From Sphaerisporangium album (GTDB taxonomy: Bacteria; Actinomycetota; Actinomycetes; Streptosporangiales; Streptosporangiaceae): a DNA stretch of 64,000 nucleotides. The translations under genes were made by a program, and so were the position numbers. The stretch is taken from assembly GCF_003323745.1 (NCBI RefSeq), contig NZ_QOIL01000016.1, forward strand, positions 62,001 to 126,000, given 5' to 3'. Within the stretch, counting starts at the first letter, position 1. Each line of letters begins with the position of its first letter. The notes beneath the pieces were generated by a model, which was not told the DNA's origin, did not search any database, and was given only the letters and a program-made list of their open reading frames with translations. Below, one piece after another: positions 19,482-37,553 of the stretch.

Positions 19482-20057
19482 TCAGGCGCGGAAGCCGCCG
19501 TAGCCGCCGCGGAAGAAGACCAGAGGTCCGCCGTCGTCGTTGACGTCGAGGTGCCGCACCTTCGCGACGACGATCATGTGGTCACCTGCCAGGTGTTCGC
19601 CGTCGATCGAGCAGTCGATCCAGGCCAGGGTGCCGTCGATGATCGGGTTGCCGCCGGGGGAGCTGGACCATTCGATTCCGGCGAACTTGTCCCCGCCCTT
19701 GCCGGCCAGTTGCCGGCACACCCCTTGGTGGTGCTCGGCGAGCACGTTGATGGTCAGGGTTTCGGCGTGCCGGATTCGAGGCCAGCTGGTGCTGGTGTGC
19801 GCGACGCAGAAGGCGACCAGGGGCGGGTCCAGCGACACGGAGGTGAACGAGTTGGCGGCCAGGCCGCAGGGCTCGCCGGTGCCCGGTTCGAGCGCCGTGA
19901 TCGCCACCACACCGGTGGGCAGTCTGCCGAGCACCGACCGAAGCCGCTGCCTGTCCACATGCCCGTCGCCGTACGGGTGGCCCGTGGACATGCCGGCCCC
20001 ATCGAGCCTTCCGCCCGGCAAACCCACACCCACACTTTGGCTCATCGAGCGCATCAT
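19482..20057 (-). CDS. Flavin reductase (NAD(P)H:flavin oxidoreductase, FlaRed-like)
   Basis: A 191-residue FMN-binding split-barrel protein: LRSVLGRLPTGVVAITA, GLAANSFTSVSLDPPLVAFCV and the terminal VRHLDVNDDGGPLVFFRGGYGGF are standard for the HpaC/ActVB-like flavin reductases of two-component monooxygenases. It supplies reduced flavin by diffusion. The gene starts 11 bp after the previous stop (ATG 20057; 20054 and 20045 are alternatives) and is the last of the 17-gene operon. Its obvious client is the LLM monooxygenase three genes upstream. Confidence 0.92.
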   Translation of the reverse strand: MMRSMSQSVGVGLPGGRLDGAGMSTGHPYGDGHVDRQRLRSVLGRLPTGVVAITALEPGTGEPCGLAANSFTSVSLDPPLVAFCVAHTSTSWPRIRHAETLTINVLAEHHQGVCRQLAGKGGDKFAGIEWSSSPGGNPIIDGTLAWIDCSIDGEHLAGDHMIVVAKVRHLDVNDDGGPLVFFRGGYGGFRA

Positions 20058-20068
20058 CGCCTCAGCTC

Positions 20069-21091
20069 TCAAAGGGGTGGGCGCAGCGCCCTGCCGCATC
20101 GGCGCGTCACTGCTTGGGCACCTCGCAACCGCTTCGGCCGACCGGCGTCGAGGCCGGCTCTGACCGTCTTCACTCCAAGGCTCTGCGCGATCCGCCTTGG
20201 TTCGTGAAATGTCAGGCATGCGTACAACGCCCGTCTGCCGGGGCCGTCCTCGCCGGGCAGCCCGACCTCGTACACCTCCAGCTCGTCCCGGTAGGTCAGA
20301 AGGGTGACGGCTCCCTCCGCGGCTCCCTCTTCACCGCCGGCGGTGGCGTGCACGACGGACACGCTCACCTCGTCGCACTCGTCCCACTGATCCATCCGAT
20401 AGCGGACGAGCGCCGGGTGGTCGACCATGCCCATGCGCTTGTTGTGCTCCGCGATCAGCGCGCACGCGGTGCCGCGGTACTCCTGCCACGGCACCGTTTC
20501 CGCCTTGATCTGATGCTCGGCGATCTGGCGCTCGCCGTGGCGGATCGTCTGCCGTACGTTGCGGGGGACGTCGGCGAGCGAGCCGAGAACGATCTCCTCC
20601 GGGTACACGAAGTCGTCGTACTCGACCAGCCACTCCATCGGACCGAAGATCGCCTCGGCGAGCCGTTGCTGCCGTTCGTCGAGATAGCCGAGGAACAGTT
20701 CGCGTCCGTCAAGCTCGGAGATCGACGCACACCCGTCGAGCACCGAGCGGAACACCTCCGGCTCGTCCACGCACCGCAGGCTGCCCCGGATCTCCAGGCG
20801 CCCGCCGACCAGGGCGCTCTTGGCCTGGATCGGTGACTCGTCAAGCCCCCACTCCTTGGGCGAGTGGATCTGGTCCGACCACTCGGTGCCGAGCCCCAGG
20901 AAGACGGGCACCGCCGCGCACAGCCGTGAACCGTCCCGCACGATGACGTAGCGCGGCTCCCAGCGGGGATCGTCCGAGTGCTGGACCAGCCTGCCGCGGC
21001 ACCCAAGGGCCCCTACGTTCGCGTCGAGTTCGTAGAGCTCGTCGGCCCCCACGTCCCCGAGATCGTCCGCCACCACCACCGAAAGCGCCAT
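20069..21091 (-). CDS. GNAT-fold (BioF2-like, PF13480) acyltransferase
   Basis: A 340-residue protein of the FemAB/BioF2-like acyltransferase type: RYVIVRDGSRLCAAVPVFL in the N-terminal half, LADVPRNVRQTIRHGERQI mid-way and YEVGLPG, then LYACLTFHEP and RAGLDAGRPKRLRGAQAV at the end, the usual finish of PF13480 proteins. Such enzymes pass acyl or aminoacyl groups to amines. Starting 2 bp after the KAS III stop, it belongs to the operon and could acylate or condense the scaffold. Substrates unknown. Confidence 0.75.
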   Translation of the reverse strand: MALSVVVADDLGDVGADELYELDANVGALGCRGRLVQHSDDPRWEPRYVIVRDGSRLCAAVPVFLGLGTEWSDQIHSPKEWGLDESPIQAKSALVGGRLEIRGSLRCVDEPEVFRSVLDGCASISELDGRELFLGYLDERQQRLAEAIFGPMEWLVEYDDFVYPEEIVLGSLADVPRNVRQTIRHGERQIAEHQIKAETVPWQEYRGTACALIAEHNKRMGMVDHPALVRYRMDQWDECDEVSVSVVHATAGGEEGAAEGAVTLLTYRDELEVYEVGLPGEDGPGRRALYACLTFHEPRRIAQSLGVKTVRAGLDAGRPKRLRGAQAVTRRCGRALRPPL

Positions 21092-21093
21092 CG

Positions 21094-22068
21094 CTACCCC
21101 GCCCGATACTCGAGTGCGGTCACCGACCAGCTGAAACCGGCGCCACTGGTCGCCAGCAACACCAGATCCCCGGTGTCCAGCGCACCCCCGTCCCACAACC
21201 GGCGCAGTGCGATCAGCGTGTCGGAGCACCCCATGTGGCCGAGCTCCGAGTGGTTGTAGACGCTGCGTTCCGGTGGCAGATCCAGTGTCGTCAGGAGGCG
21301 GTCCTGGATGTTCTTGTCGTTCTGGTTGATGAGCAGGAAGCGCACGTCGTCCTGCTTCCTGCCGATCTCGTCGAGCGTGTCCCCGACGAGCGTGACGAAG
21401 TTGTTCACGTATGTGTCGGAGAGTCCTTTCCGGTGCCCACGCCGGCGGGTGTAGACGCCCGTGTCGTGGTAGTCGCCGATGAAGTAGTCGCACCACTGCG
21501 GGTCGGTCCGGGCCGACGAGCCGAGGTACGCGAACGAGTGGTGTGAACCGCCCACGAGCACGGCGGACGCCGCGTCTCCGAAGTTGAACAGGCCTTTGGA
21601 GTCGGGGTCGCGGCGGTCCACCGCGTGGGCGAACCGTTCGGCCGCGACCACCAGGACGCGCTCGTCGGAGCCGGGGGTGAGCCCGTCGACGGCGATGCGC
21701 ATCCCGACGGTCAGCGCGTTGCAGAAGTTGGTGACCTCGAAACAGTGCGCCCGGGTGATGCCCAGCTCGTCGGCCACCTTGGCGGCGGGCGACCAGGCGG
21801 GGGCGTCCCAGTAGCCGGCTCCCGCGTAGATCACCCGGCTGATCGATCCGGGATCGGTCCCCGTGCGGTCGAGGGTGGTGGCGGCGGCGTCGACCGCCAG
21901 CTCCCACGCCTGCTCGTCCGGTCCCAGCACGGGGAACTCCTGGCAGTGCGTGATCTCCAGGATCTCGGGTATCGAGACGCCGGACCACTCGTGCATCTGC
22001 TGGACCGTCATCCGGCCCTGGGGGAACGCGACCTCGAAGTCGACGAGCCCGCCCCGTGACATGGTCAT
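21094..22068 (-). CDS. KAS III (FabH)-like acyltransferase with altered active site
   Basis: A 324-residue thiolase-fold protein with both FabH-like halves and the nucleophile C116 (EVTNFCNAL). Hand alignment with FabH shows the usual His of PHQAN replaced by N248 (LLINQND) and the usual Asn of GNTS replaced by H278 (LGHMG). Decarboxylative condensation needs the normal His/Asn pair, so this is more likely an acyl-transferring enzyme like CerJ/ChlB3 or one with new chemistry. ATG 22068 overlaps the LLM stop by ATGA. A second such protein is encoded at 27082. Confidence 0.85.
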   Translation of the reverse strand: MTMSRGGLVDFEVAFPQGRMTVQQMHEWSGVSIPEILEITHCQEFPVLGPDEQAWELAVDAAATTLDRTGTDPGSISRVIYAGAGYWDAPAWSPAAKVADELGITRAHCFEVTNFCNALTVGMRIAVDGLTPGSDERVLVVAAERFAHAVDRRDPDSKGLFNFGDAASAVLVGGSHHSFAYLGSSARTDPQWCDYFIGDYHDTGVYTRRRGHRKGLSDTYVNNFVTLVGDTLDEIGRKQDDVRFLLINQNDKNIQDRLLTTLDLPPERSVYNHSELGHMGCSDTLIALRRLWDGGALDTGDLVLLATSGAGFSWSVTALEYRAG

Positions 22069-23123
22069 CGGCTCTCGCCGCCGGTCTGGGACGCCTGCCG
22101 CAGCCGGTCCAGCCTGGTCAGCCCCGACAGCACCGAATCCGCCGGCAGGCCGAAGTCGATGAGGCACGCCACCTCGTCCACTCCGGCGGCGCGGAACTGC
22201 TCGATGACGCCCTGCGCCTTGGACACGGTGCCCAGCAGGCCGTGGTCGTAGTAGCGGTCGAAGGCCTGCCCCACCAGGAACTCGGTGTCCTCGGCCGACA
22301 ACCGGGAGAGGTCCACCTTGCGCCGCCCGTCCAGCTGGGACGCCGTCAGCAGCCCCAGCGAGCTTCGCATGTACTCCGACAGGGGCGGACGGACCATCTC
22401 GCGGGCCGTGTCCTCGTCGTCGTCCAGGTAGGTGTGGATCATCAGCGCGACATGCCCCGGCCACTCGTCGGCGTCCGGACGGTCGATGAGCGCCTTCCGG
22501 TACTCGGCGATCTTCATGGCGAGGGTGTCGAGATCCTGGTCGAGCAGGTGGGTGAGCACACCGGCGCCCAGCCGGCCGGCCTGGCGGAAGGTCTCCACCC
22601 CGCCCGCGCTCGTCACCCAGATCGGCAGGTCGCGCTGGATCGGCTGGGGATAGATCCGCACGTCCACCGGCTCGCCCACACCGTTCGTCACCGTCAGGGC
22701 GTCACCCCGCCAGAGGCTCCGCACCGTCTCGACGTACTCCCCGAGCAGCCGCTTACGGTCGGCATAGTTCTCCGGCCTGAGCGAGTAGTCGTTGGCGTGC
22801 CAGCCGGACGCGAAAGAAATGCCAACCCGTCCGCCGGAGATGTTGTCGACGACCGCCCACTCCTCGGCGATCCTGAGCGGATGGTGCAGTGGCGCGACGA
22901 CGCTGCCCGCGCGGATCCCGACCCGGTTCGTGACGGCGGCGATGGCGGCGCTCGTCACGGAGGGGTTGGGGTACAGCCCGCCGAACGGATGGAAGTGACG
23001 CTCGGGGGTCCACACCGCGCTGAATCCATGGGTGTCGGCGAATTGGGCGCCCTCCAGGAGGAGCCTGTACCTGCCCTCACCCGGGGTGCTGTCGTCGGCG
23101 AAATAGAAAAGACTGAAATCCAT
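22065..23123 (-). CDS. LLM-class flavin-dependent monooxygenase (MupA/Atu3640 natural-product group)
   Basis: A 352-residue luciferase-like TIM-barrel protein: MDFSLFYFAD, then FSAVWTPERHFHPFGGLYPNPSVTSAA and VGIRAGSVVAPLHHPLRIAEEWAVVDNISGGRVGISFASGWH, the pattern of the stand-alone or embedded LLM enzymes in NRPS/PKS clusters. They use reduced flavin to hydroxylate carrier-bound intermediates or amines. AAAGAGG lies 6 nt before ATG 23123. The flavin reductase in the same operon completes a two-component oxygenase. Confidence 0.92.
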   Translation of the reverse strand: MDFSLFYFADDSTPGEGRYRLLLEGAQFADTHGFSAVWTPERHFHPFGGLYPNPSVTSAAIAAVTNRVGIRAGSVVAPLHHPLRIAEEWAVVDNISGGRVGISFASGWHANDYSLRPENYADRKRLLGEYVETVRSLWRGDALTVTNGVGEPVDVRIYPQPIQRDLPIWVTSAGGVETFRQAGRLGAGVLTHLLDQDLDTLAMKIAEYRKALIDRPDADEWPGHVALMIHTYLDDDEDTAREMVRPPLSEYMRSSLGLLTASQLDGRRKVDLSRLSAEDTEFLVGQAFDRYYDHGLLGTVSKAQGVIEQFRAAGVDEVACLIDFGLPADSVLSGLTRLDRLRQASQTGGESR

Positions 23124-23148
23124 CTTGACCTCTTTCAAGTCGCGAAGT

Positions 23149-24393
23149 TCAGGCGTCGGCGGCCGTTACCGAGGCTTCCACTGGTCCGATCCGGGTGCGC
23201 TGTGCCCAGCGGGCGATCGGCGCCGCGATCATTCCCGCGACGAGGAACACGCCGGCCCACACCAGCAGGCCCATGCCGCCGATCGCCGCAAGCACCGTGG
23301 TGACGGCCACGGGCGCGATCATGGAGCCGAGCTGCGTGGACATCTCGAACAATCCCTGGTACTGCCCCTGGGCGCCTTCGGGAGCGAGTCCGTAGCTCAA
23401 CGACCACGCGCCCGCACTGTGCAGCATCTCGCCGAAGACGTGGACCAGCGTCCCGACCAGGAGAAGCGCGCACGCCACCCACACCGGCTGCCCGGCGGAC
23501 GCGGCGAAGATCGCGCAACAGGCGGCGAGCGCCAGGCTGGCCCTCCGCCAGGCCCGTACGCCGCCGGTGACGTCCTCGCTCCCCTTGCTCGCACGGACCT
23601 GGAACAGGATGACGACCGCCGTGTTGACGAGCAGCATCACCGTGAGGAAGAACGGCGGCGCCGTCGTCTGCTGACTGATCCATACCGGCATGGCGACCAC
23701 GAGGACCGCGTCGCTCATGACCAGCACGCTGTTGACCAAGGACACCGCGGCGTACGGGAGGTCGCGCAGGACCCCCCACGACGGCCCCTCCTTCGGGCCG
23801 GCTCCGGTCGCCGGCACCGAAGGCACCCGCAGGAAGGCCAGACCGGCCGTGGTGTAAAGGACGCCGGCCGTGATGAGCAGGCCCATGTAGCCGGCCCGGG
23901 AGTCGAAGAGCAGGCCCAGGCCGCCCGCGACCGATCCCAGGGCCACCCCGATGTTGGCCGTCGAGCGCATGTGGGCCAGCGCGTGCGACCGCGCCGCACC
24001 CGGCAGCAGGCCGGCCAGCAACGCCCCGCGAGCCGCGTGGGACGCGGACTCGAACCCGAGGACGACGGCGGCGGCCACCACCAGTCCGACGAACCCGGAG
24101 ACGAGCGCGTAACCGCAGGCGGCGACGCCCAGCAACGCCAGCATCGTGATGGTCACGGCGCGCGGCCCTCTGACGTCCGCCAGCCGTCCGGCAGGGACGC
24201 TGGACAACATCCCGACCGCGGCGCCCAGGGTCAGCGCGAGCCCCACCCGCTCGGGTGCGATGCCGATCACCCGGGTGAAGTACAGCACGCTGATGGTCAT
24301 GAGGATGCCGTGCGCCGTCGTCTTGGCCAGATTACTGATCGCCAGTAGTCGAACGATCCCGGCGGGAGGGATCACGTCCTTGAGGAATGACAT
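23149..24393 (-). CDS. MFS transporter (probable product exporter)
   Basis: A 414-residue major facilitator with 12 predicted helices and the motif-A loop GRLADVRGPRAVTIT between helices 2 and 3. Sitting inside the biosynthetic operon, 16 bp after the adenylation gene, it most likely exports the product and may confer self-resistance. Substrate is inferred only from context. Confidence 0.88.
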   Translation of the reverse strand: MSFLKDVIPPAGIVRLLAISNLAKTTAHGILMTISVLYFTRVIGIAPERVGLALTLGAAVGMLSSVPAGRLADVRGPRAVTITMLALLGVAACGYALVSGFVGLVVAAAVVLGFESASHAARGALLAGLLPGAARSHALAHMRSTANIGVALGSVAGGLGLLFDSRAGYMGLLITAGVLYTTAGLAFLRVPSVPATGAGPKEGPSWGVLRDLPYAAVSLVNSVLVMSDAVLVVAMPVWISQQTTAPPFFLTVMLLVNTAVVILFQVRASKGSEDVTGGVRAWRRASLALAACCAIFAASAGQPVWVACALLLVGTLVHVFGEMLHSAGAWSLSYGLAPEGAQGQYQGLFEMSTQLGSMIAPVAVTTVLAAIGGMGLLVWAGVFLVAGMIAAPIARWAQRTRIGPVEASVTAADA

Positions 24394-24409
24394 GGGGAAT
24401 GCGGACCAA

Positions 24410-25951
24410 TCATCCGGTTCCGGACATTACGTCGTCCCGCAACGAGTTCCGGTCGACCTTGCCGTTGGCGTTGAGAGGGAGAGAATCACGGTGATGCAGC
24501 CGCCGGGGCACCATGTGGATGGGGAGGCGCTCCCGCAGCCAGCGGACGAACTGCCGCTCGGGCACCTCGGTCCCCGTGTAGAAGCCCACCGGCTGGACGG
24601 TCTCGCCGTCGCGGATCGCGATGACCACCGCGTGGATCACGTCCGGATGCCGCAAGATCGCGGCCTCGATCTCGCCGAGCTCGACCCGGTAGCCCCGGAT
24701 CTTCACCTGGTGGTCGAGCCGGGCGAGGTGGACGAACTCCTCGTTCTCCCACCGCACACGGTCACCCGTGCGGTAGTAGTGATCCGGTCCGGGCGCGGCC
24801 CCCTCGTCCGGCACGTACCGGTCCCCGTTCCAGACCAGGAACCGGCCCCGGTTGTCCTCGGGATCCACGTATCCGGCGAACCGCTGCACCCCCCGGACGC
24901 ACAGCTCCCCTTCCAGGGCCGGCGCGCCGTCCTCGCCGACGATCACGTGGTCGAGATACTCGTAGACCGGTCCGATCGGCACGGTGTCGTTGGACGTCGA
25001 CGGCCACTGCCCCGGATCCGCCGGCAGCCGGTACTCCGTGCACGCCACGGTCAGCTCCGTGGGACCGTACACGTTGTCGATACGCGCCTGCGGCGCGACG
25101 GCCCGCCACGCCGTGGCCTGGTTGTAGGTGAGCTGCTCCCCGATGAAGATGCTCTGCCGGAGCGCGGTCGGTCGTCCCGTCGGCAGGTTGTCGAGGTTGG
25201 CGCTGACCGAGACGATCGAGGGCACCGAGAACCAGTGGGTGATGGCGTTGTCGACCAGGTAGTCCACCGGGCTCAGCAACTCGCTCCGGGCCGGTGAGAC
25301 CAGCGTCGCCCCGCCGCCCCACGTGACGAAGAGATCGAAGACCGACGGGTCGAAGGTCAGGTCGAACGTGTGGGAGACCCGGCACCCCGGCCCGACCTCG
25401 TACCGGGCGATGTTGCGCGCGACGTACGGCGAGGCGTTGGCGTGGGTGATCGGGACACCTTTCGGCCTTCCCGTCGAGCCCGAGGTGAACAGGACGTAGG
25501 CCACGTCGCCGGGCGTGGTCGCCGGCTCGGGAAGCGGTCCCGGCCGTGCGCCGAGCACGTCGGAGTCCTGGAGCCGCACCACCGTTTCCACGGTGCCGCC
25601 GACGCCGGCGAGCTGGCTCTCACCGTTCTCGTCCGCGATCAACACGTCGCACTTGATGGCGCGGCAGATGATCTCGTTGCGGTACACCGGGTGACCGGGG
25701 TTGAGCGGCACGACGGCGGCGCCGAGCCGCTGGGCCGCCAGGTAACCGGCGAACGCCGCCAGGCTGCGGTTGGCGAGGAGCGCCACCCGTTCCGGTACGG
25801 CACCGTGTGCCTCCAGGATGCCCGTGGCGACCGCCTCGGCGCAGCGGTGCAGTTCCCGGTAGGTCAGCACCTCGCCGCCGACTTCGAGTGCCGGCCCGTC
25901 CGGAACCCGCTCGACCGATCGGGCGAACCACTCGTACAGCGTCTGAGGCAT
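24410..25951 (-). CDS. Stand-alone amino acid adenylation enzyme
   Basis: A 513-residue AMP-forming A domain: A3 YVLFTSGSTGRPKGVP, A5 NVYGPTE, A7 YRTGD, A8 LDHQVKIRGYRVELGEIEA and A10 NGKVDRNSL with the catalytic Lys. A hand-read specificity code is roughly D-P-F-S-I-I-V-V-A-K; D235 points to an alpha-amino acid, but the code matches none that I know. It has no carrier domain, so it should load the separate carrier protein encoded at 33718. ATG 25951 overlaps the FkbH-like stop by ATGA. Confidence 0.93.
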   Translation of the reverse strand: MPQTLYEWFARSVERVPDGPALEVGGEVLTYRELHRCAEAVATGILEAHGAVPERVALLANRSLAAFAGYLAAQRLGAAVVPLNPGHPVYRNEIICRAIKCDVLIADENGESQLAGVGGTVETVVRLQDSDVLGARPGPLPEPATTPGDVAYVLFTSGSTGRPKGVPITHANASPYVARNIARYEVGPGCRVSHTFDLTFDPSVFDLFVTWGGGATLVSPARSELLSPVDYLVDNAITHWFSVPSIVSVSANLDNLPTGRPTALRQSIFIGEQLTYNQATAWRAVAPQARIDNVYGPTELTVACTEYRLPADPGQWPSTSNDTVPIGPVYEYLDHVIVGEDGAPALEGELCVRGVQRFAGYVDPEDNRGRFLVWNGDRYVPDEGAAPGPDHYYRTGDRVRWENEEFVHLARLDHQVKIRGYRVELGEIEAAILRHPDVIHAVVIAIRDGETVQPVGFYTGTEVPERQFVRWLRERLPIHMVPRRLHHRDSLPLNANGKVDRNSLRDDVMSGTG

Positions 25952-27069
25952 CACAGCGCCGCCCCCTGTGAGCTCCGCGCGAACCACTCGACCAGGTCCG
26001 GTTCGGGACGGGCCAGATTCACGGCGCGCACCAGGATCGTGTCCGGCGCGGGCCGGCGCTGCGGCAGCAGGTGGAGGCGTTCCACGCCGTCGGTCCCCGC
26101 GGGCAGGGCCGCCGCGCAGGGGCACGCGTCGTCGCCGAATCCGGCGAACCGGTAGGCGACCTCCATCATGCGGTTGCGGTCGGTGCGCCGGAAGTCGGCC
26201 GTGAGATGCGCTCCCGCCGAAGCGGCCTGGTCGGAGAGCCAGTTCAGCAACACCGAACCGGCGCCGAAGGCGACGACGCGGCATGACGTCGCCAGCAGCT
26301 TGAGGTGCCAGACCTCGGAGTGCTTCTCTATCAGGACGACGCCGACCGCTCCGTGTGACCCGAACCGGTCGGTCATGGTCACGACGAGCACCTCGTGGCG
26401 GGGGTCCGACAGCAGGTCCCGCAACGCCTCGTACGAGTAGTGCACGCCGGTCGCGTTCATCTGGCTGGTGCGCAGGGTGAGCTCTTCTGCGCGGCCGAGG
26501 TCCTCCTCGTCCGCCCGGCGTACGCGCATCTCCAGGTCGAGGGTGCGGAGGAATTCCTCGTCCGGCCCCGGGAAGTCCGACCGTGCCGTTTCGCGGGCGA
26601 AGTTGGCCTGGTACATGGCGCGGCGGTGCCGGGAGTCCCCGGTCACCTTGGCGGGGTTGAACTCGGGCAGGTCGAGGAGGGTCGTGGCGACCTCGGCCGG
26701 GTAGCAGCGGACTTCGGGCAGCCGTAGGGCCACCTCCGCGCGCTCGGTCGCCTGGTCGTCGATGAACGCGATGGTGTTGTGCGCGAACTGCAGCCGGTCG
26801 GCGATCGCGGTGATCGACGCGGACTTCGAACCCCAGCCGATCTGCGGCAGGACCATGTACTCGGCCACGCCGAGCTTCTCCAGCCACCCCCACGCGTGGT
26901 CGTGGTCGTTGCGGCTCGCCACCGACTGCAGAATTCCCCGCTCGTCGAGTCCGACGATGACCCGGCGGATCTCGTCGCTGAGCCGGACCTCTCCGTCCTC
27001 CAGCAACACCCCGTGCCACAGAGTGTTGTCCAGGTCCCACACCAGGCACTTGACCGTATCGGAACCCAT
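25951..27069 (-). CDS. FkbH-like HAD-IIIC glyceryl transferase/phosphatase
   Basis: A 372-residue protein with the HAD motif VWDLDNTLW (nucleophile D12), SRNDHDHA and FIDDQATERAEV, followed by the C-terminal GNAT-like domain with LATSCRVVAFGAG. FkbH-type enzymes take 1,3-bisphosphoglycerate, remove phosphate and place a glyceryl group on an ACP, the first step to hydroxymalonyl- and methoxymalonyl-ACP extender units. AAGGAGG lies 8 nt before ATG 27069. The acyl-CoA dehydrogenase, ACP and 3-hydroxyacyl dehydrogenase needed for the later steps follow upstream in the operon. Confidence 0.93.
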   Translation of the reverse strand: MGSDTVKCLVWDLDNTLWHGVLLEDGEVRLSDEIRRVIVGLDERGILQSVASRNDHDHAWGWLEKLGVAEYMVLPQIGWGSKSASITAIADRLQFAHNTIAFIDDQATERAEVALRLPEVRCYPAEVATTLLDLPEFNPAKVTGDSRHRRAMYQANFARETARSDFPGPDEEFLRTLDLEMRVRRADEEDLGRAEELTLRTSQMNATGVHYSYEALRDLLSDPRHEVLVVTMTDRFGSHGAVGVVLIEKHSEVWHLKLLATSCRVVAFGAGSVLLNWLSDQAASAGAHLTADFRRTDRNRMMEVAYRFAGFGDDACPCAAALPAGTDGVERLHLLPQRRPAPDTILVRAVNLARPEPDLVEWFARSSQGAAL

Positions 27070-27081
27070 CTCACGGCCTCC

Positions 27082-29415: not shown

Positions 29416-30272
29416 GACGCTCCTTGGTGCTCGTAGAACCCACGGCCGGTCTTGCGGCCGAACTCGCCGGCTTTGACTTTCGCCACCAGCAGGTCGCAGG
29501 GGCGGTAGCCCTCGTCCCCGGTGCGCTCCAGCAGCACGTACAGCGAGTCGACGACGTTGTCCAGGCCGATGAGGTCGGCGGTGGACAGCGGGCCGGTCCG
29601 GTGACCGAGGCAACCGGTGAACGCGGCGTCGACCGCCTCCGGGGTGGCGACGCCGTCCTGGACGATGCGGGCCGCCTCGTTGATGGCCCGCTGGAGGATG
29701 CGGTTGATGACGAAGCCCGGGCCGTCGCCGACCAGCACCGGCGTCGTGCCGAGGTCGGCGAGCATCCTCTGCGCCGCCTCGATCGCCGCGTCGGCCGAGC
29801 GCGGACCGCGGATCAGCTCGACCGTGCGGATCAGGTAGGGCGGGTTCATGAAGTGGATGCCGACCAGGTCCTCGGGACGCGCCACGTACTGGGCGAGCTC
29901 GTCGATCGGGATGGCCGACGTGTTCGACACGACGAGCGTCCCCGGCGAGACGGCCGCGGTCGCCGCGGTCAACGCCTCGGCCTTCGGCTCCAGACGTTCG
30001 GTCACCGCCTCGATCACGGCGCTGGCGCCCGCCACCCGGCCGACGTCCGTGGTCGTCTCCAGCTCACCGGCCGGAGTGTCCGCCGGCAACTTGCCCATGA
30101 GCTGGCACAGGCGCAGCTGCTGGGCGACGCTCGCCCTGGCGCGGACGAGCTTCTCCTCGTCGATGTCGACCAGGACGACCGGAAAGCCGTAGCCCACGGC
30201 CAGCGTGGCGATACCGGTGCCCATCACGCCGGCGCCGAGGACGGCCAGCCGGCCCTTGGTGTGATCGCTCAT
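29412..30272 (-). CDS. FkbK-like 3-hydroxyacyl-CoA dehydrogenase
   Basis: A 286-residue dehydrogenase with the NAD motif LAVLGAGVMGTGIATLAV, VSNTSAIPI, the catalytic GIHFMNPPYLIRTVELI and GFVINRILQRAINEA. In the FkbG-K pathway this enzyme oxidises glyceryl-ACP before the acyl-CoA dehydrogenase acts. ATG 30272 overlaps the KS-ACP-TR stop. Confidence 0.93.
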   Translation of the reverse strand: MSDHTKGRLAVLGAGVMGTGIATLAVGYGFPVVLVDIDEEKLVRARASVAQQLRLCQLMGKLPADTPAGELETTTDVGRVAGASAVIEAVTERLEPKAEALTAATAAVSPGTLVVSNTSAIPIDELAQYVARPEDLVGIHFMNPPYLIRTVELIRGPRSADAAIEAAQRMLADLGTTPVLVGDGPGFVINRILQRAINEAARIVQDGVATPEAVDAAFTGCLGHRTGPLSTADLIGLDNVVDSLYVLLERTGDEGYRPCDLLVAKVKAGEFGRKTGRGFYEHQGAS

Positions 30273-33200
30273 CGTTCGGTTTCACTCTCCTCGTCCCGGG
30301 CGACCAGGTCGCCCACCAGCTTCATGACCAGGTCGTCGCGCCGGGCCAGGAACTCGATGCCGCGGCGCAGCGTCTGACCCGTCAGCCGCGGATCGAGACC
30401 CTTACGGCTCAGCCACGGCTGCCATCCGGCGGCCTGGACGGCCAGCTCGTCGTCGTCGTGCCCTTCGAGCTCCAGCAGGGCGGCCGCGGACAGGATGGGA
30501 TTGCCGGTCTCCAGCGCCAGCCGGCGCACCCGCTGCTGCCAGTCCGCCAGCGGCATCGGCTCGGTGGGCAGGCCCGCGGCCCCGAGCAGGGCGAAGAGCC
30601 TGCGCATGCTGACCCCGCGCTCCGCGACCAGGTGGTAGGCGCGGCCGATCGAGCCCGGGGACAACGCCAGCTCGACGATCGCGTTCGCGACCAGGTCCAC
30701 CGGTGACATCATCAGCACCCGGTCGTCCTGCGGATGCCCGCCCACGGCCAGGCCGCTGATCAACGCGAAGTAGATCAGGTCCTTGTCGTTGCCCGCGCCG
30801 GTCCGGCTCGACGACATGATCAGGCCCGGACGGAACACCCGCACCCGCATGCCGTCCTCTTCCGCGCGGGTGAGGAGACGCTCGCAGACCCACTTGCCGG
30901 CGCCGTAACTGCCCGCCTGCGGGTCGAGCGACTGGGCCCGCGTCTCCAGGTACCGGTTGGCCGATCCCATCGCCGGGCCGGCCGCCGCCAGGGAGGAGAC
31001 GTAGCTGAAGTCGCGGATGCCATGGCCCCGTGCCCATGTGAGCAGGTCTGCCATGGGCAGGACGTTCTCCTCGCGGAGGGTGCGGTACGGCTCGGTGAAC
31101 ACCACCTTCGCGGCGCAGTGCACGATGTGGCCCACTCGGCGCCCGAGTTCTCCGTCCCGGTAGACCTCCCCGGCCTTGGCGAGGTCGCGCAGGTCGGCGG
31201 GCACCACGTGGACCCGTTCGGCATCCGGTTCCGGCAGCGTGAACTTCTGGGCCGCCGCGCGCAGGCGGTCCATGCCCGCGGCCTCGTCGTCGGCGCGGAC
31301 CACGCAGTAGATCCGGCCGGTGGTGTGGTCCAGGAGCTCCCGCAGCAGGAAGGCGCCGAGGAAGCCGGTCGCACCGGTGAGGAGGAAGTCCTTCCCCCGC
31401 GACCGGGCCGACGCGACCGACCCCAGCGGCAGCTTCAGGTCCGCGTCGATGAACTCGTCGTCGCCCCGGTCGAGCTCGTCGCCGAGGCCGGTGTTCGGGG
31501 TGCCGGACATGTCCTTCTGGGCGCGGACCAGTTCGGCCAGGCGGCGGACGGTGACCTTGCTGCCACCGGCGCGGTGGACGTTCACCATGCAGCCGAAGCG
31601 GTTCTCGATCTCCAGGGCCAGTTGCACCGCCAGCAGCGACGTCCCGCCGAGCGCGCCGAAGTGGTCGTCCAGGCCGATCGCCGGGACGCCGAACAGGTCC
31701 CGCCAGATGGCGAGCAGCCCCGCCTCGACGTCGTCCCCGGCCGTGTCCGCCACGGGTGCGGCGGAGGCGGCCGAGGCGGCCGAGGCGGCGGCGCCGGCTC
31801 CGGGGGCCAGCGAAACGCGATCCAGCGCCCAGTAGCGCTGCCGGGTGAACGGGTAGCTGGGAAGAGCGATACGGCGGCCGGTGTCGGGCGACAGCGGCGT
31901 CCAGTCCACCGGAACACCCTGGAGCCACGCCTCGGTGAGCGCCGCCTCCACTTCGTCGCGCAGATCCGGCGCGTCCTCGCGCAGGACGTGCCGGTCCTCC
32001 CCGGGCTGCGGCCCTGTGCCGACGAGGATGACGAACCGGTCGGCCGGCACCGCCGCGGTATCGGTGAACGTCTCGGTGCCGGCCGGCAGAGCGGCCAGCA
32101 GGAGTTCACGGATGTCCGCGGGGATCGCCGAGTCCGCACCGATGACGAGCGCGGCGCGGCGGGCGGGGCTGCGCCGGGACTTCACGAGCGGCGGACGGGG
32201 CAACCGCAGCGCCGCGGCCAGGCGACCCGGCTCGGCGGTCACCACGCGGCGCTCCTCGAAGTCGCGCCGGCCCACACGCAGCGTGTACATCACATCGGCC
32301 GGCGGGAGCTCGCTCCGCTCCAGGGCATCGGCGAGCTTGCGGGACAGCGCGTCCAGCTCGGTCCGGTTCCGGGCGGAAAGCTGGAGCCGGACCTTCTCGC
32401 GCCGCGGTGCGGCGGCACGCGTCCGCGCGGGCGGCGGGCCCAGCACGGCCGCCGCGTTGGAGCCGCCCATGCCCACCGAGTTGACCAGCACATAGCAGTC
32501 GTCGGTGGAGTGGCCGAGTTCGGTGGAGATGGTGAACGGGCTCTCGGCGAGCACGCCGGGCTCGCGCGGCCGCTCGAACGCGGGGTGCGGCGGCAGCACT
32601 CCGGTGCCGGCGATGTGCACGGCCTTGATGAAGCCCGCGATGCCCGCCGTGGGACCGGTGTGCCCGATGTTCGACATGACCGAGCCGAGGCGGCAGTACC
32701 CGGTTCCCGCGCTGGTCCTGCGCAGCGCGGTGGTGAGCGCCGCCAGTTCGACCTGGTCGCCCAGCGGGGTGGCGGTGCCGTGCGCCTCGACGTAGCGGAG
32801 TCGCTCCGCGCTGATCCCGGAGACGTTCAGGGCGCCGCTCACGACTCGGGTGATCCCGGCGGGGCTCGGCGCGACATAGCCGATCTTGTCCGGTCCGTCG
32901 TTGCCGACGGCGCTGCCGTACAGCACGGCCAGCACCTCGTCCCCGTCGGCCAGGGCGTCGGCGAGCCGGCGCAGCACCACGACGCCCACGCCGGACCCGT
33001 GGTTGGTGCCGTTGGAGCGGTGGTCGAAGGAGCGGCACTGCCCGTCGTCGGACAACGCGCGCCCGGGTTTGTGGCGGTAGCCGAGCAGCGGTTCCTGGAC
33101 GGCGGAGCCGCCGGCCAGCGCGATGTCGCACTCACCGGCCAGAAGGCTCAGGGCCGCGTAGTTCAGCGCGTACAGGGACGACGAACAGCCGGTCTGAACG

Positions 33201-33721
33201 CTCAGAGCGGGTCCGCGCAGGCCCAGTTTGTACGCCGTGCGCGAGGGCAGGAAGTCGACTTCGCCGCCCAAAGTCAGGTCCAGGTCTCCCACCGCGGCGG
33301 CCACGCCCTCGGTGCGGGCCTTCGCGGCGAAGAGCGCGGCCGAGTACGGTCCCACACCGCTACCGGCGAACACGCCCACCGTCTTGGCGTCCGCGCTGGA
33401 GATGTGCCCGGCTCGTTCAAGCGCCTCCCAGGCCACCTCCAGGAAGATGCGGTGCTGCGGGTCGATCAGCTCGGCCTCGCGGGGCGTGTAGCCGAAGAAG
33501 TCCGCGGCGAACTCCGCGGCGCCGGGGAGCCGCGTGCCGACCCGGACGTAGTCGCTTCCGCGGAGTGTCTCCTCGTCGACACCGGAGGCGCGAAGCAGGT
33601 CGTCCGGCAACGGGCGCATCGAGATGACGCCGTTGTCGATGTTCGACCAGAACTCCTCGGGCGTCCACGCGTCCGGGAACCGGCAACCGACGCCGACGAC
33701 GGCGATCGCGGTATCGCTCAT
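30269..33721 (-). CDS. AT-less polyketide synthase: KS-ACP-thioester reductase
   Basis: An 1150-residue protein. Residues 1-428 are a ketosynthase with an intact C179-H314-H354 triad (TGCSSS, EAHGTATPLG, NIGHT). Residues about 440-635 are linker, ending in LPSYPFTRQRYW, the post-AT motif, but no acyltransferase domain lies between. Residues about 664-735 are an ACP (LGGTSLLAVQ, S695). Residues about 775-1130 are a thioester reductase (LLTGATGFLGAFLLREL; Y939-x3-K943). No KR, DH or C domain is present. It should condense one carrier-bound acyl or aminoacyl group with one extender unit and release an aldehyde or alcohol. The extender must arrive in trans, presumably from the adjacent (hydroxy/methoxy)malonyl-ACP cassette. 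The start overlaps the carrier-protein stop by ATGA. Confidence 0.93.
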   Translation of the reverse strand: MSDTAIAVVGVGCRFPDAWTPEEFWSNIDNGVISMRPLPDDLLRASGVDEETLRGSDYVRVGTRLPGAAEFAADFFGYTPREAELIDPQHRIFLEVAWEALERAGHISSADAKTVGVFAGSGVGPYSAALFAAKARTEGVAAAVGDLDLTLGGEVDFLPSRTAYKLGLRGPALSVQTGCSSSLYALNYAALSLLAGECDIALAGGSAVQEPLLGYRHKPGRALSDDGQCRSFDHRSNGTNHGSGVGVVVLRRLADALADGDEVLAVLYGSAVGNDGPDKIGYVAPSPAGITRVVSGALNVSGISAERLRYVEAHGTATPLGDQVELAALTTALRRTSAGTGYCRLGSVMSNIGHTGPTAGIAGFIKAVHIAGTGVLPPHPAFERPREPGVLAESPFTISTELGHSTDDCYVLVNSVGMGGSNAAAVLGPPPARTRAAAPRREKVRLQLSARNRTELDALSRKLADALERSELPPADVMYTLRVGRRDFEERRVVTAEPGRLAAALRLPRPPLVKSRRSPARRAALVIGADSAIPADIRELLLAALPAGTETFTDTAAVPADRFVILVGTGPQPGEDRHVLREDAPDLRDEVEAALTEAWLQGVPVDWTPLSPDTGRRIALPSYPFTRQRYWALDRVSLAPGAGAAASAASAASAAPVADTAGDDVEAGLLAIWRDLFGVPAIGLDDHFGALGGTSLLAVQLALEIENRFGCMVNVHRAGGSKVTVRRLAELVRAQKDMSGTPNTGLGDELDRGDDEFIDADLKLPLGSVASARSRGKDFLLTGATGFLGAFLLRELLDHTTGRIYCVVRADDEAAGMDRLRAAAQKFTLPEPDAERVHVVPADLRDLAKAGEVYRDGELGRRVGHIVHCAAKVVFTEPYRTLREENVLPMADLLTWARGHGIRDFSYVSSLAAAGPAMGSANRYLETRAQSLDPQAGSYGAGKWVCERLLTRAEEDGMRVRVFRPGLIMSSSRTGAGNDKDLIYFALISGLAVGGHPQDDRVLMMSPVDLVANAIVELALSPGSIGRAYHLVAERGVSMRRLFALLGAAGLPTEPMPLADWQQRVRRLALETGNPILSAAALLELEGHDDDELAVQAAGWQPWLSRKGLDPRLTGQTLRRGIEFLARRDDLVMKLVGDLVARDEESETER

Positions 33722-34080
33722 AACCGGCCCCCGCCCGCCGGGGTGGCGGCCGCCCGCCTGGCGGCGAGCAGCGACCGCTGCCCGGACTCCGCGGCCACGG
33801 GTCGCTCGGTGGCGGTGGGCTCGGCGGCCGCGGGCTTGTCGGCCAGCAGGTCGGCCTGCGCTCGCACCGTTCCGTGCTGGAACAGTTCGGAGAGCTTCAC
33901 CGGACGCACCGCCAGCGGCTGCAGCTCTTCCCACAACATGACGAGCAGCAGCGAGTTCCCACCCGCCTCCAGGAAGTTCACGTCCAGCGGCACGCTCTCC
34001 GCGGAGTCGGTGCCGAGGACGTCGGCCCACGCCTTGCGCACCTGAGCGACGAGCTCGTCACTTGTCTCGGAGATGTTCAC
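33718..34080 (-). CDS. Stand-alone (peptidyl) carrier protein
   Basis: A 120-residue protein whose first 75 residues form a carrier domain with Ser43 in FLEAGGNSLLLVMLW. The remaining 45 residues are an Ala/Thr/Glu/Arg-rich tail, perhaps a flexible docking tail toward the KS protein made from the next gene. It starts at GTG 34080, overlapping the previous stop (GTGA), and its last sense codon is the rare TTA, directly before the TGA that overlaps the KS start. It is the most likely acceptor for the adenylation enzyme. Confidence 0.9.
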   Translation of the reverse strand: MNISETSDELVAQVRKAWADVLGTDSAESVPLDVNFLEAGGNSLLLVMLWEELQPLAVRPVKLSELFQHGTVRAQADLLADKPAAAEPTATERPVAAESGQRSLLAARRAAATPAGGGRL

Positions 34081-34964
34081 TTGATATCGCCTCGTTTCGT
34101 TGTTACCGAGCTCGCTGTGCGGGATCGGACTTCTTCGATCACCACGCTGATGTCTCGTTCGCTCAGGCCGCTGTGCACGGCCGCCGACAGGTGTCTCCGC
34201 GCCGCGGCGACAAGCCCCGAAGGGTCGGCGCCGGCGGCCAGGATGAGTGCCAGATCCTTCTCCGCCAGTCCGAGGGAGAACTGCGTGGGGAATTCGTCGT
34301 CACCGATTCGGTCGCGAATCCGTTCCACGAACGGGCCCACCGCGCTGGTACCGAGCAGGCCCAGCGTGTCCTCGGTCGTCAGGCCGAGCCGGTCGCCCAG
34401 CGCGAGCGCCTCAGCGATCATCGTGAACGACGTAATCGTGATCATGTTCGCGACGAGCTTGCCCGCGGCCCCGGAACCGAGAGGTCCGAGGTGGGTGACC
34501 GAGCCGAGCACGGCCAGCACGTCGGCGCACCGTGACACGTCGGCTTCCTCACCCCCCACCAGGATCCGCAGCTTGCCGGCCGTCGCCTGGGGGAGGCTTC
34601 CGACGACGGGCGCGTCCACGAGCCGGATGCCCGGCCGCAGGCGGTCCCGGAGTTCGGTGACGGCGTCCGGGCCGATGGTGGACATCTCCAGCACCACGGT
34701 GCCGGGGGCCATGTCCTGGCCGGCTCCCTTCTCGCCGAGCAGCACCCCGCCGACCGCGTCGGCGTCGCGCAGCATGGTGATGACCAGATCCGCGTCCCTC
34801 GCCGCCTCCGCCGGAGTGCCGGCGATGTGGGCTCCGGCATCGGCGGCCCACGCGCATTTCTCCGGGGTACGGTTCCAGACCGTCACCCGATGACCGGCGT
34901 CGACGAGCCGGCGGGCCATGGGCACGCCCATGCGGCCCTGTCCAAGGAAGGCAATGGTCGACAT
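34077..34964 (-). CDS. NAD(P)-dependent beta-hydroxyacid dehydrogenase (3-HIBADH/imine-reductase-like)
   Basis: A 295-residue 6PGDH-fold enzyme: MSTIAFLGQGRMGVPMARRL, VLEMSTIGPDA, the substrate loop DAPVVGSLPQATAGKLRILVGG and GAAGKLVANMI with the catalytic Lys. It would oxidise a beta-hydroxy acid or, as in related imine reductases, reduce an imine. Given the aldehyde-releasing TR domain and RidA nearby, imine chemistry is attractive but unproven. Confidence 0.85.
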   Translation of the reverse strand: MSTIAFLGQGRMGVPMARRLVDAGHRVTVWNRTPEKCAWAADAGAHIAGTPAEAARDADLVITMLRDADAVGGVLLGEKGAGQDMAPGTVVLEMSTIGPDAVTELRDRLRPGIRLVDAPVVGSLPQATAGKLRILVGGEEADVSRCADVLAVLGSVTHLGPLGSGAAGKLVANMITITSFTMIAEALALGDRLGLTTEDTLGLLGTSAVGPFVERIRDRIGDDEFPTQFSLGLAEKDLALILAAGADPSGLVAAARRHLSAAVHSGLSERDISVVIEEVRSRTASSVTTKRGDIK

Positions 34965-34973
34965 GGCGCCCGG

Positions 34974-35846
34974 TCAGCCTTCCGAGCCGTGGGCGGTACG
35001 GTCGCGGGGTGCTCCCGCGGTCGCCTCTACCTGCGCCTCCGCCTGCGCGCGCAAGGAATCATCGAAACTCATGTGCCCGCCCGGGCGGGCGTACCGGCGC
35101 GGTAGGACGCCGGCGGTCCGGCGCAGGATGGTGACGCTGTTCTGCGTGAGCTTGTGGGGCTCCAGGAGGTTCACCACTTCGAACTCGCCGGGCCTTTCAC
35201 GCTGGAGCGTGGCCAGGTACCTCAGGAACGCCTCGCCTTCCGGGTAGGTCATCAGATAGTGCATGACCACGAGGCCCCCGTCCGGATTGATCAGATCCCA
35301 GAAGTTGTCGAAGAAGTACAGGCACTCCCACGCGTCGATCCAGGCGAAATCAATGGGCAGGAAATCCTCGGGGAGATGTTCGGCGCACGCCCGCAGATCC
35401 GCGTTCACAACCGTCACGAGATGGTCGAGCTCCAGCTCGCGCAGCACGTCCCACACCTTCGACGACGACGACTCGGGAATCGAGAGATCGTCGACGGCGA
35501 CGAGCCTGGGGAGATAGGGGGCACCGTAGAACCCGGGCGCCAGCAGGGCCGGCGGGGAATCCATCCACGTCTCGTCCAGGGGGACGCCGCCGTCGAGGTA
35601 GGGCCGGGTCTTCGCGGCGAGCGCCGGTGACTCCGCCCGGACCTCGTCGGCGATCTCGCCGAGGGCTCCGGCCAGAAATGGGGTGGTGTACCCCATCCCG
35701 ACTTCCAGCACCCGCTGCGGACGTACGAGCTTGAGCAACGCGGCGAGCAGCGGGCCCACCGCCTCGGTCCCCATCACGGGGACGCATAAGGACTCGACCG
35801 CGCGGCGGAACCGCTCATCGGTGGTGCGAGTGACGGACAACGTCAC
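34974..35846 (-). CDS. Class I SAM-dependent methyltransferase
   Basis: A 290-residue methyltransferase with motif I RVLEVGMGYTTPFLAG, an acidic strand DFAWIDAWECLYFF and PDGGLVVMHYLM, as in Methyltransf_24-type O-methyltransferases. It starts at GTG 35846, overlapping the RidA stop. It is the only candidate in the operon for O-methylating the hydroxymalonyl unit (the FkbG role), but it is longer than FkbG proteins and could act on the finished product instead. Confidence 0.82.
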   Translation of the reverse strand: MTLSVTRTTDERFRRAVESLCVPVMGTEAVGPLLAALLKLVRPQRVLEVGMGYTTPFLAGALGEIADEVRAESPALAAKTRPYLDGGVPLDETWMDSPPALLAPGFYGAPYLPRLVAVDDLSIPESSSSKVWDVLRELELDHLVTVVNADLRACAEHLPEDFLPIDFAWIDAWECLYFFDNFWDLINPDGGLVVMHYLMTYPEGEAFLRYLATLQRERPGEFEVVNLLEPHKLTQNSVTILRRTAGVLPRRYARPGGHMSFDDSLRAQAEAQVEATAGAPRDRTAHGSEG

Positions 35847-36268
35847 TCCCCGGCGCCCGGACGGGCCATGACCGCCATGACCTCGACCTCGATGACCGCC
35901 TCGGGAAGGAACAGGCGCGAGACCTCCACGGTGGTGCTGGTCGGAGGCTCCTCGGTCGGCAGGTACTTACGGCGGATCTCGCCGTACTCGCTGCGCCTGT
36001 CCATGTCGGTCAGGTAGGTCCGGATGTTCACGATGTCCCGGAAGGTCGCGCCGTGCGCCTCGAGAATCTTGCCGATGATCTCGAAAATGCGCTCGGACTG
36101 CCCGCGCATATCGCCAGGAGCGACGAGGTCGAGCCCGGTGTCGTCGACGGCGACCTGGCCGGACAACATCAGAACAACGCTGTCACCGATCTCCAGGCGG
36201 GCGACGTGGGAGTACCGGCCCTGAGGCGGCTCGGGGACGCCGGCGGGGTTGTCGATGATCTTACGCAA
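35843..36268 (-). CDS. RidA (YjgF/YER057c/UK114) family protein
   Basis: A 141-residue RidA-fold protein: YSHVARLEIGDSVVLMLSGQVAVDD, then FEIIGKILEAHGATFRDIVNIRTYLTDM and the C-terminal PEAVIEVEVMAVM. RidA proteins hydrolyse reactive enamines or imines; pathway-specific members occur in natural-product clusters. The start is TTG 36268 with a strong GGAGG 7 nt upstream. It implies a reactive imine or enamine intermediate in this pathway. Confidence 0.92.
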   Translation of the reverse strand: MRKIIDNPAGVPEPPQGRYSHVARLEIGDSVVLMLSGQVAVDDTGLDLVAPGDMRGQSERIFEIIGKILEAHGATFRDIVNIRTYLTDMDRRSEYGEIRRKYLPTEEPPTSTTVEVSRLFLPEAVIEVEVMAVMARPGAGE

Positions 36269-36296
36269 TTTCCTGCCTCCAGTTATCGCGACGTGC

Positions 36297-37553
36297 TTAT
36301 CGCGCCGTGCTGTAAACGAGGTCGCGGGCGCTGCGATCCACCCGCCTGCCGTCTATCTCGAATTGGTAGGAGATCCTGCTCATGATCGTCTCGATCGTGG
36401 CTGCCAGCGCCTCGTGGTCCGGCACGTCCCCTACCACCAGGTCCAGGTCATGGGTCCACACCCCTCCGACCTCGGTACCGGGCCTGACCAGGGGATATCG
36501 GTGGACGACACCGGGAACGTCCTTGAGCGCGTCCGCCCCGCACACCGCCGATACGGTGCCGGACTCGGTGGGCGCGGGCGTCGTGAACTGGAAGTAAACC
36601 CGGTCCAGATCCACGGGATGGATTTCAACCCGCTCGCCACGGGCGATTCTGCCGGCGACGTCTATCAGGTCGATCGCGGCCGCGCGGCGGGCGAGTTCGG
36701 GAATATAGCCGCCTACGCGACCGTTCACCTCGATGATCCGCGGGCCGTCCGGGGTCAGTTTGATTTCGGTGTGAAGGATTCCCGATTCGACGCCCAGGGC
36801 CTTGATGGCCTGGTCCGCCAGCACTTCGACGCTTTCTCGGGCGGCTGTGTCGAGCCGGGGCGGCCAGAATTGGCCGCATTCCCGGAACGGTGGCACGAGC
36901 CGCAGTTTACCGGTGATCGCGAGATGGCATCGCTCGCCGTTCTGAACGACGGTCTCGACCGACACATAATCGCCGAACGGTTCCGGGACGTCAATGCCGC
37001 GTAAGTATTTCTCGACGACGACCGTGCCTTCTTCGCGCAGTATGGGGCCGATATGTGAACGACCGGCCTCCAATTCGTCGATCAAGACCGTGTTCCGGCT
37101 GCTCACGCCTCGCGCCGGTTTAATGACGACCGGTAATCGGACCCGTTCCACGGCGGAATCCCATTCGTCGGCCCGGGATATGACAATGGAGCCGGTTTCG
37201 TCGACACCGGCGGCGCGGAGCCGCCGCCGCTGCACGTGCTTGTTCGTCAGGCGCTCCACCAGGCCGGCGTCGTGGAAACGCAGCCCGAGGGCCGACGCGA
37301 GCACGGATGTCGCCTGGAGCATGGGTTCGCTGAACGTCACCACGCCGGTCACGCCATGACCGCGAAGCCGTTCTACCAGGTCGACGTCCTCCAGGTCGTG
37401 AACGGCGGCACACGTCTCGGCGAACAGCGGACGCACCCGCTGGGCGTGGGCGGACCCGGCCAACACGAGAATAAGGGCCTGTGGCTCCGTGAATCCTTGA
37501 AGGATCTCAGTTGGCGATACGGCACCCTGATCGTAAACCACGACTATCGACAC
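36297..37553 (-). CDS. ATP-grasp carboxylate-amine ligase
   Basis: A 418-residue ATP-grasp protein: RLTNKHVQRRRLRAAGV, LPVVIKPARGVSSRNTVLI (ATP-binding Lys), VVVEKYLRGID and the metal-binding IEVNGRVGGYIPELARRAA. Such enzymes couple a carboxylate to an amine through an acyl phosphate. GTG 37553 has GGAG 8 nt upstream; the longer ATG 37595 start lacks a ribosome site and lies in small CATGCCAA repeats. One Leu (VEKYLRG, 37002-37004) is encoded by TTA. As first gene of the operon it may join the PKS-derived acid or an amino acid to another amine. Confidence 0.88.
   Translation of the reverse strand: MSIVVVYDQGAVSPTEILQGFTEPQALILVLAGSAHAQRVRPLFAETCAAVHDLEDVDLVERLRGHGVTGVVTFSEPMLQATSVLASALGLRFHDAGLVERLTNKHVQRRRLRAAGVDETGSIVISRADEWDSAVERVRLPVVIKPARGVSSRNTVLIDELEAGRSHIGPILREEGTVVVEKYLRGIDVPEPFGDYVSVETVVQNGERCHLAITGKLRLVPPFRECGQFWPPRLDTAARESVEVLADQAIKALGVESGILHTEIKLTPDGPRIIEVNGRVGGYIPELARRAAAIDLIDVAGRIARGERVEIHPVDLDRVYFQFTTPAPTESGTVSAVCGADALKDVPGVVHRYPLVRPGTEVGGVWTHDLDLVVGDVPDHEALAATIETIMSRISYQFEIDGRRVDRSARDLVYSTAR

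Follow-up and report, generated by a model that had tools for sequence, protein, structure and literature searches.

A 17-gene operon in the actinomycete Sphaerisporangium album suggests a new route by which an oxygenated two-carbon unit is fed to an assembly enzyme. The operon, whose genes we call A to Q, occupies the minus strand from position 37553 to position 19482 of a 64,000-nt stretch of contig NZ_QOIL01000016.1 (assembly GCF_003323745.1, contig positions 62,001 to 126,000), hereafter the window. The reading towards which we lean, without great assurance, is that the operon makes a hybrid of an amino acid and a two-carbon (C2) unit: J, a protein of the ketosynthase III (KSIII) fold, would load hydroxymalonyl onto F, a module with ketosynthase (KS), acyl carrier protein (ACP) and reductase domains and without an acyltransferase (AT), F would release the chain, and A, an ATP-grasp enzyme, and P, a protein resembling tandem GCN5-related N-acetyltransferases (GNATs), would form amide bonds. 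The product would probably be a small peptide-like aldehyde. A small aldehyde or amine of this hybrid kind, with one carbon oxygenated, had been the simplest product proposed in a sequence-only reading of this DNA; the aldehyde is supported here.

The ends of the 17 genes overlap or almost touch. Eight of the 16 junctions (B/C, D/E, E/F, F/G, G/H, I/J, K/L and N/O) are 4-base ATGA/GTGA overlaps and H/I is an 8-base overlap; P and Q overlap by at most 151 bases, an overlap that disappears with an internal start of Q, for example at 20057. The remaining junctions are gaps of 2, 9, 12, 16, 25 and 28 bp. A single operon with no gap above about 30 bp, as first read from the letters, is borne out by 17 same-strand genes whose largest gap is 28 bp, whereas the accompanying count of at least ten ATGA/GTGA overlaps falls to eight, ten being the most that can be counted when overlaps of all kinds are included. 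The gene classes named in that reading were matched by Pfam and NCBIfam scans, the methyltransferase and the GNAT being classed by predicted models. A scan for promoter and terminator consensus sequences gave no more matches than expected by chance. From sequence comparison the unit looks bounded, because a genus-mate (G221) keeps both flanks, with the AAA/VWA pair on the downstream side and the M28 peptidase and alaS on the other, at 81–90% identity around different genes, among which no operon gene was found at more than 45% identity.

A hydroxymalonyl cassette beside an AT-less module

Five contiguous genes, G-H-I-J-K, hold the proposed extender pathway. G (29412-30272; PF02737/PF00725) is of the 3-hydroxyacyl-CoA dehydrogenase (3HCDH) type, H (29140-29415) is a free ACP that matches NCBIfam carrier families and PF00550 (25.8 bits, a score taken from the longer open reading frame (ORF) 29140-29613), I (28038-29147; PF00441/PF02771/PF02770) is of the acyl-CoA dehydrogenase type, and K (25951-27069) is an FkbH-type glyceryl transferase/phosphatase (TIGR01686, 359.2 bits against a cut-off of 146.65). 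J lies at 27082-28041. We take the roles of G to I and K to be those of the corresponding genes of the zwittermicin A pathway, in which an ACP-bound extender is likewise made through an FkbH protein, an ACP, a 3HCDH and an acyl-CoA dehydrogenase. In the accessible part of PMC6164871, ACP-bound extenders pass through AT-type enzymes: the polyketide synthase (PKS) domain ZmaA-AT takes hydroxymalonyl-ACP, and the discrete ZmaF and OzmC hand over other ACP-bound extenders. Unlike zwittermicin A, the system described here has no AT in F and has a KSIII-fold gene within the cassette.

F (30269-33721) shows the KS-ACP-thioester reductase domain set in Pfam and matches TIGR01746 at 220.8 bits (cut-off 213.35). 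Its KS Cys/His/His motifs are present, GHSxG is absent and Pfam finds no AT; Pfam scans of the operon genes also found no discrete FabD-type AT of the kind used by classical trans-AT PKSs. The AT-less KS-ACP-reductase and the glycerate-derived cassette predicted earlier are therefore both present. Four J sequences were aligned, a named genome collection was scanned with the alignment, and 50 loci were fetched, each extending at most 10 kb to either side of J, so that genes M, N, O, C, B and D are under-counted in them. Near J, and with the window not counted, H was found in 48 loci, G in 46, I in 45 and K in 44, and the AT motif GHSxG was missing from 40 of the 43 KS ORFs. Among additional J stretches, the KS ORFs of L035 (from the genome of L085), L037, L038 and L040 lack GHSxG, with no AT found by Pfam in the L040 protein, and the KS ORF of L032 (from the genome of L063) has the motif. 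Because J travels with the hydroxymalonyl-ACP genes and the adjacent KS is mostly AT-less, the simplest role for J is probably to load hydroxymalonyl onto the AT-less module F. No report of a KSIII-fold hydroxymalonyl transferase was found in the open-access literature searched.

J and O carry an acyltransferase-type triad

The condensing enzyme FabH uses a catalytic Cys, His (His244) and Asn (Asn274). When these positions were examined in J and O, the Cys was present and the His and Asn positions were replaced. The Cys is kept in all 50 rows of the J alignment (49 loci and the window), and in 49 of 49 readable rows the FabH His position is Gln and the FabH Asn position is His, with an Asp five residues further on; the resulting triad in the window is Cys111-His276-Asp281. 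O (21094-22068; Cys116-His278-Asp283) has the Cys, Asn in place of the FabH His, His in place of the FabH Asn, and the Asp in all nine rows (eight loci and the window), and in each of these nine it occurs alongside N. J His276 and Asp281 align with His296 and Asp301 of ChlB3, which is also the top match in the PDB for the C-terminal third of J (E 2.3e-9), above every FabH. According to the part of PMC9573744 that could be consulted, the ChlB3 triad is Cys113, His296 and Asp301, and in CerJ malonyl transfer is lost in C116S, C116A and H295N and retained at 0.3% in D301A. CerJ and ChlB3 thus have in common with J a Cys-His-Asp triad at the ChlB3 spacing; in CerJ the acceptor of the malonyl group is a sugar, the cargo of ChlB3 is 6-methylsalicylate, and the loading of PKS extenders is not described for either in that part of the source.

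By their residues J and O look like KSIII-like acyltransferases, with a mixed placement by sequence. They had been described as two odd KAS III-like proteins, of which the KSIII fold stands, with Pfam ACP_syn_III_C matches, and the Cys-His-Asp triad points to acyl transfer in place of condensation. That J and O are nonetheless true KAS III condensing enzymes for a starter or branch unit, the KS of F using an extender still held on H, seems unlikely to us: the ACP_syn_III_C matches would fit such a role, as would the facts, which also count against J and O as acyltransferases, that full-length J scores FabHs above ChlB3 and that O, whether compared whole or by its C-terminal part, is nearer FabHs, but the FabH His and Asn are replaced in all readable rows, Cys-His-Asp at the ChlB3 spacing is conserved, and an extender kept on H would leave the ACP and reductase of F without a substrate.

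The window is an unusual member of a wider family

As judged by sequence, E to O is the shared block of a family present in many actinomycetes, and the window is an unusual member of it. Gene counts were made by tblastn with identity and coverage cut-offs of our choosing, a locus being called F-type when F was found at 45% identity or more. By this measure F, along with most of the block, is in 28 of the 50 J loci; E is found in 27 of these 28, G in 27, H in 28, I in 26, J in 28, K in 24 and L in 22, and within the loci as cut M is seen in 12, N in 13 and O in 6. Eleven of the 28 were extended, and in these clusters L (at least 50%) was found in 10, K in 10, N (at least 60%) in 9, M (at least 44%) in 9 and O (at least 50%) in 6, with orthologues of C in 8, of B in 3 and of D in 2. 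Both AT motifs did not occur together in any ORF of the 11 extended clusters; a PKS distinct from the M. chokoriensis cluster but close to it has one AT motif in each of two ORFs. The operon type, called unrecognised in the sequence-only reading, is therefore not unique to the window, and that description stands in so far as no published product or description for the gene set was recognised in the open-access literature searched. Members of the 28-locus family appear to produce reactive aldehydes of a peptide-like type, or the reduced counterparts of these.

In nine of the 11 extended clusters, two nonribosomal peptide synthetase (NRPS) genes lie immediately upstream of E, the first with adenylation and peptidyl carrier protein domains (A-PCP) and the second with a carrier domain between two condensation domains (C-PCP-C). 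The C-PCP-C family was counted through composition-based gene calls, which agreed with tblastn, and the domains were checked with Pfam in L041, L047 and L050. Of the two exceptions, S. capoamus combines A-PCP with a longer synthetase that has an adenylation domain of its own, and S. rimosus (L070) has a different synthetase, beginning A-MT-PCP-C-A (MT, methyltransferase). The adenylation code of the relatives' first NRPS gene reads DAF...GTF, presumably a valine code, by a motif-based method that gave complete codes for few proteins and missed L of the window. The two-gene NRPS is not in the window, and Pfam scans of the operon genes found no condensation domain. Conversely, orthologues of A and P were found in none of the 28 F-type loci and none of the 11 extended clusters, the window alone having both. 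The window offers a natural experiment: its operon holds candidate amide-forming enzymes of other kinds and is without the NRPS genes.

A tree of J was built from 48 rows (the short rows L073 and L088 were omitted, and L089, without a full J, never entered). It places the window inside a 36-row actinobacterial group with support of 100, and the five rows nearest to the window by path carry C-PCP-C and a luciferase-like monooxygenase (LLM) gene. J matches were found in 11 of 345 genomes of the order, the window's own genome included, and several of them are weak.

Several members depart from the common layout. L041 (Amycolatopsis sp. WAC 01376) keeps F, J, L, M, N and C and is missing K, and has lower-identity G-, H- and I-like genes downstream, as if J served another carrier-bound extender. 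J relatives at 32–36% identity occur in Bacteroidota and one metagenome-assembled genome (L076-L082, L084 and L090); G-, H-, I- and K-like genes accompany them in eight of the nine loci (not L081), and their KS ORFs lack GHSxG. Downstream of O, L047 and L054 have an extra adenylation enzyme, a small protein and an enzyme that Pfam, run on L047, places in the ornithine/diaminopimelate-decarboxylase fold; the set recalls the decarboxylation of a carrier-bound amino acid. The S. rimosus locus has E to K at 51–67% identity and an L-like enzyme at 50%, with no orthologue of M, N, O, A or P in 46 kb; it is an NRPS-PKS locus whose first module bears a methyltransferase, and none of the ORFs scanned was recognised as a halogenase. 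S. rimosus makes tyrobetaine from an NRPS-PKS cluster, according to the accessible parts of PMC9045324, PMC11097637, PMC13098539, PMC6697067 and PMC7804863, and our guess is that L070 is that cluster. Foxicin, also considered as a relative, was set aside; it has an FkbH-like domain, but the accessible part of its description gives AT-containing modules.

Candidate amide-forming enzymes

A (36297-37553) matches PF13535 at 31.5 bits (cut-off 27), and its best PDB matches are the ATP-grasp L-amino acid ligases BacD (E 9.7e-13) and BL00235 (E 2.5e-12), which are distant relatives at 51 bits. P (20069-21091) has no Pfam or NCBIfam match and is GNAT-like by its predicted model, in which the mean predicted local distance difference test score (pLDDT) is 74.5. 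Foldseek ranks Sbb17/Sba18, which are aminoacyl-tRNA-dependent peptide synthases, first to third for this model, followed by the clavulanate tandem GNAT and FemX, with TM-scores to Sbb17/Sba18 and FemX of only about 0.5–0.6. From the model, P looks most like aminoacyl-tRNA-dependent transferases, with putative use of tRNA; the GNAT-fold enzyme named earlier thus keeps its fold, as a tandem GNAT, and gains this more specific likeness. At E 1e-10, 9 of the 345 genomes searched in the order had a P match, one of the nine being the window's own genome; among 396 genomes of the phylum, at E 1e-20, the window's own genome was the only one with a match. Seven other P loci were examined, and in five of them (L012-L016) the P-like gene has A- and L-like genes for company. 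These five form a recurring small cluster of a P-like GNAT, an adenylation enzyme and an A-like ATP-grasp enzyme, with a dehydrogenase of the 6-phosphogluconate dehydrogenase type in the two loci examined by Pfam and, in L012, an oxidoreductase, a nucleoside hydrolase and a major facilitator superfamily (MFS) gene as well.

The relatives' two NRPS genes would make two amide bonds; in the window their counterparts are two other candidate amide-forming enzymes, A and P, which may functionally replace them. Amide ligation as a later step, suggested before any of these searches, is supported by a BacD-like and a FemX/Sbb17-like protein in the operon. The aminoacyl group itself would come from L (24410-25954; PF00501/PF13193), a free-standing amino-acid adenylation enzyme whose nearest PDB match is IdnL7 (6akd, 322.9 bits), and E (33718-34080), a free carrier with a GGNS motif and weak NCBIfam carrier matches, is the proposed amino-acid acceptor.

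A and P might instead attach an amino-acid mask that can be taken off again, of the kind VinM adds for vicenistatin, or provide self-protection, so that the product would be a small amine or, after cyclisation, a pyrroline. The IdnL7 selectivity residues Cys217, Ala285 and Thr318 are shared with VinM-type enzymes (PMC11253843, accessible part), and VinM couples an amino acid that is bound to a carrier with L-Ala (PMC11284099, likewise in part); a free amine and an aldehyde would cyclise, a RidA protein suits imine chemistry, and the operon has a gene for an M28 peptidase about 3.4 kb upstream. Yet L has Pro, Ile and Ala at the three IdnL7 positions, no peptidase lies within the operon, and the M28 gene is also present in G216 and G221, both of which are without the operon. 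We regard this alternative as improbable, to about the same degree as the condensing role for J and O.

Tailoring enzymes and export

N (22065-23123) is a luciferase-like FMN monooxygenase of the MupA/Atu3671 family (TIGR04020, 463.5 bits against a cut-off of 244.45), and its nearest PDB match is PuwE (353.3 bits). PuwE, MupA and, as we assume, FbnE share the LLM family with N, and differ from it in partner genes and proposed substrate. N-oxidation, suggested earlier as a later step of the pathway, finds no specific support in this placement. Q (19482-20219; PF01613, 140.4 bits; start candidates span 20219 to about 20045) is a flavin reductase and the proposed supplier of FMNH2 to N. For fabrubactin, the proposal is that FbnE forms the alpha-hydroxycarboxylates (accessible part of PMC12971057). 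That the operon makes a metal chelator, with N rearranging a beta-keto unit to an alpha-hydroxycarboxylate, is the least probable of the alternatives: it would fit the TIGR04020 membership of N, the FbnE proposal and the periplasmic-binding-protein and FecCD genes about 2–5 kb after N in Umezawaea (L044), but no iron-uptake gene was recognised among the subset of window proteins scanned, N was not seen in 15 of the 28 F-type loci as cut, and the reductase domain gives an aldehyde, not an acid.

D (34077-34964; PF03446/PF14833) is a beta-hydroxyacid dehydrogenase of the 3-hydroxyisobutyrate dehydrogenase type, and among its closest relatives of solved structure are reductases of sulfolactaldehyde and of tartronate semialdehyde (6sm7, E 1.7e-36; 1vpd, E 8.9e-36); a place near hydroxyaldehyde reductases fits an alpha-hydroxy-beta-keto aldehyde product. 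C (34974-35846) is a methyltransferase with a COMT-like fold in its model (pLDDT 73.4), for which Foldseek matches are mainly O-methyltransferases; its Methyltransf_24 score of 20.8 bits is below the cut-off of 26.3. All eight aligned C sequences have His-Tyr (194-195) where the Asp-Asn metal ligands of COMT-type enzymes are expected. B (35843-36268; PF01042, 79.8 bits) is a RidA-type imine/enamine hydrolase, and M (23149-24393; PF07690, 97.9 bits) is an MFS exporter.

Proposed pathway

From gene content, protein families, active-site residues, the lack of an AT and the presence and absence of genes across the loci, we infer the following activities, order of steps and product. L would activate an amino acid and charge the carrier E. 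K would place a glyceryl unit on the ACP H, which G and I would oxidise to hydroxymalonyl-ACP, and J, acting as an acyltransferase and not as a condensing enzyme, would hand the hydroxymalonyl group on H over to the ACP of F. There the KS domain would couple it with the aminoacyl group carried by E, after which the reductase domain would release an alpha-hydroxy-beta-keto aldehyde, a possible substrate for reduction by D and for methylation by C. A and P, the latter by a tRNA-dependent type of reaction, would form amide bonds in place of A-PCP and C-PCP-C, N with Q would carry out a flavin-dependent oxidation near the new C2 unit, O would perform a second acyl transfer, and M would export the product.

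A number of observations speak against parts of this pathway. K was not seen in six of the 50 loci (L041, L061, L067, L075, L081 and L073, the last of which ends directly after J), and L081 is also without G, H and I. An AT-like motif occurs in L059, L063 and one of the two L067 KS ORFs, and the test for an AT was a motif search without a control set of AT-bearing PKSs, in which some ORFs were cut at locus ends. J could move an aminoacyl or peptidyl chain instead of hydroxymalonyl. The forks around the window in the J tree have support of 85 and 92, so its placement is not firm, and the smaller fork includes L059, L060, L063 and L064, which at the cut-offs used are without C-PCP-C, LLM or an F-type gene. 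For the amide-forming enzymes, A-like ATP-grasp genes lie outside the cluster in 18 of 25 relatives' genomes, the clavulanate tandem GNAT at Foldseek rank 4 for P was solved with and without acetyl-CoA, and the closest relative of P (L011, 57%) has no A-type ATP-grasp gene in its 31-kb contig. The residues of L at the IdnL7 selectivity positions, aligned above, also count here.

A broader proposal, which we put forward tentatively and hold less firmly than the pathway itself, is that J founds a group of KSIII-fold, extender-loading trans-acyltransferases in Actinomycetota and, at 32–36% identity, in Bacteroidota, and that in the window a ligase and a tRNA-dependent transferase replaced a two-gene NRPS acting on the same kind of warhead. 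If true, a KSIII-fold loader in two phyla would be an alternative to AT-type extender loading, and would offer a handle for engineering and for genome mining.

Neighbouring genes

The alaS gene beside the M28 peptidase (42614-45283, plus strand) is the second alaS of the genome, 65% identical to the other copy, and was considered as a self-resistance gene or as a source of charged tRNA for P. It is not operon-specific, because the same alaS/M28 pair, with alaS at 88% identity, occurs in G216 and G221, both without a P or J match; P may have come to use it later. G214 and G223 have a different second alaS copy (50–51%). Elsewhere in the window, on the plus strand at 52724-61852, a 3,042-residue protein with DUF7927/DUF11 repeats and fn3 domains is probably a surface protein.

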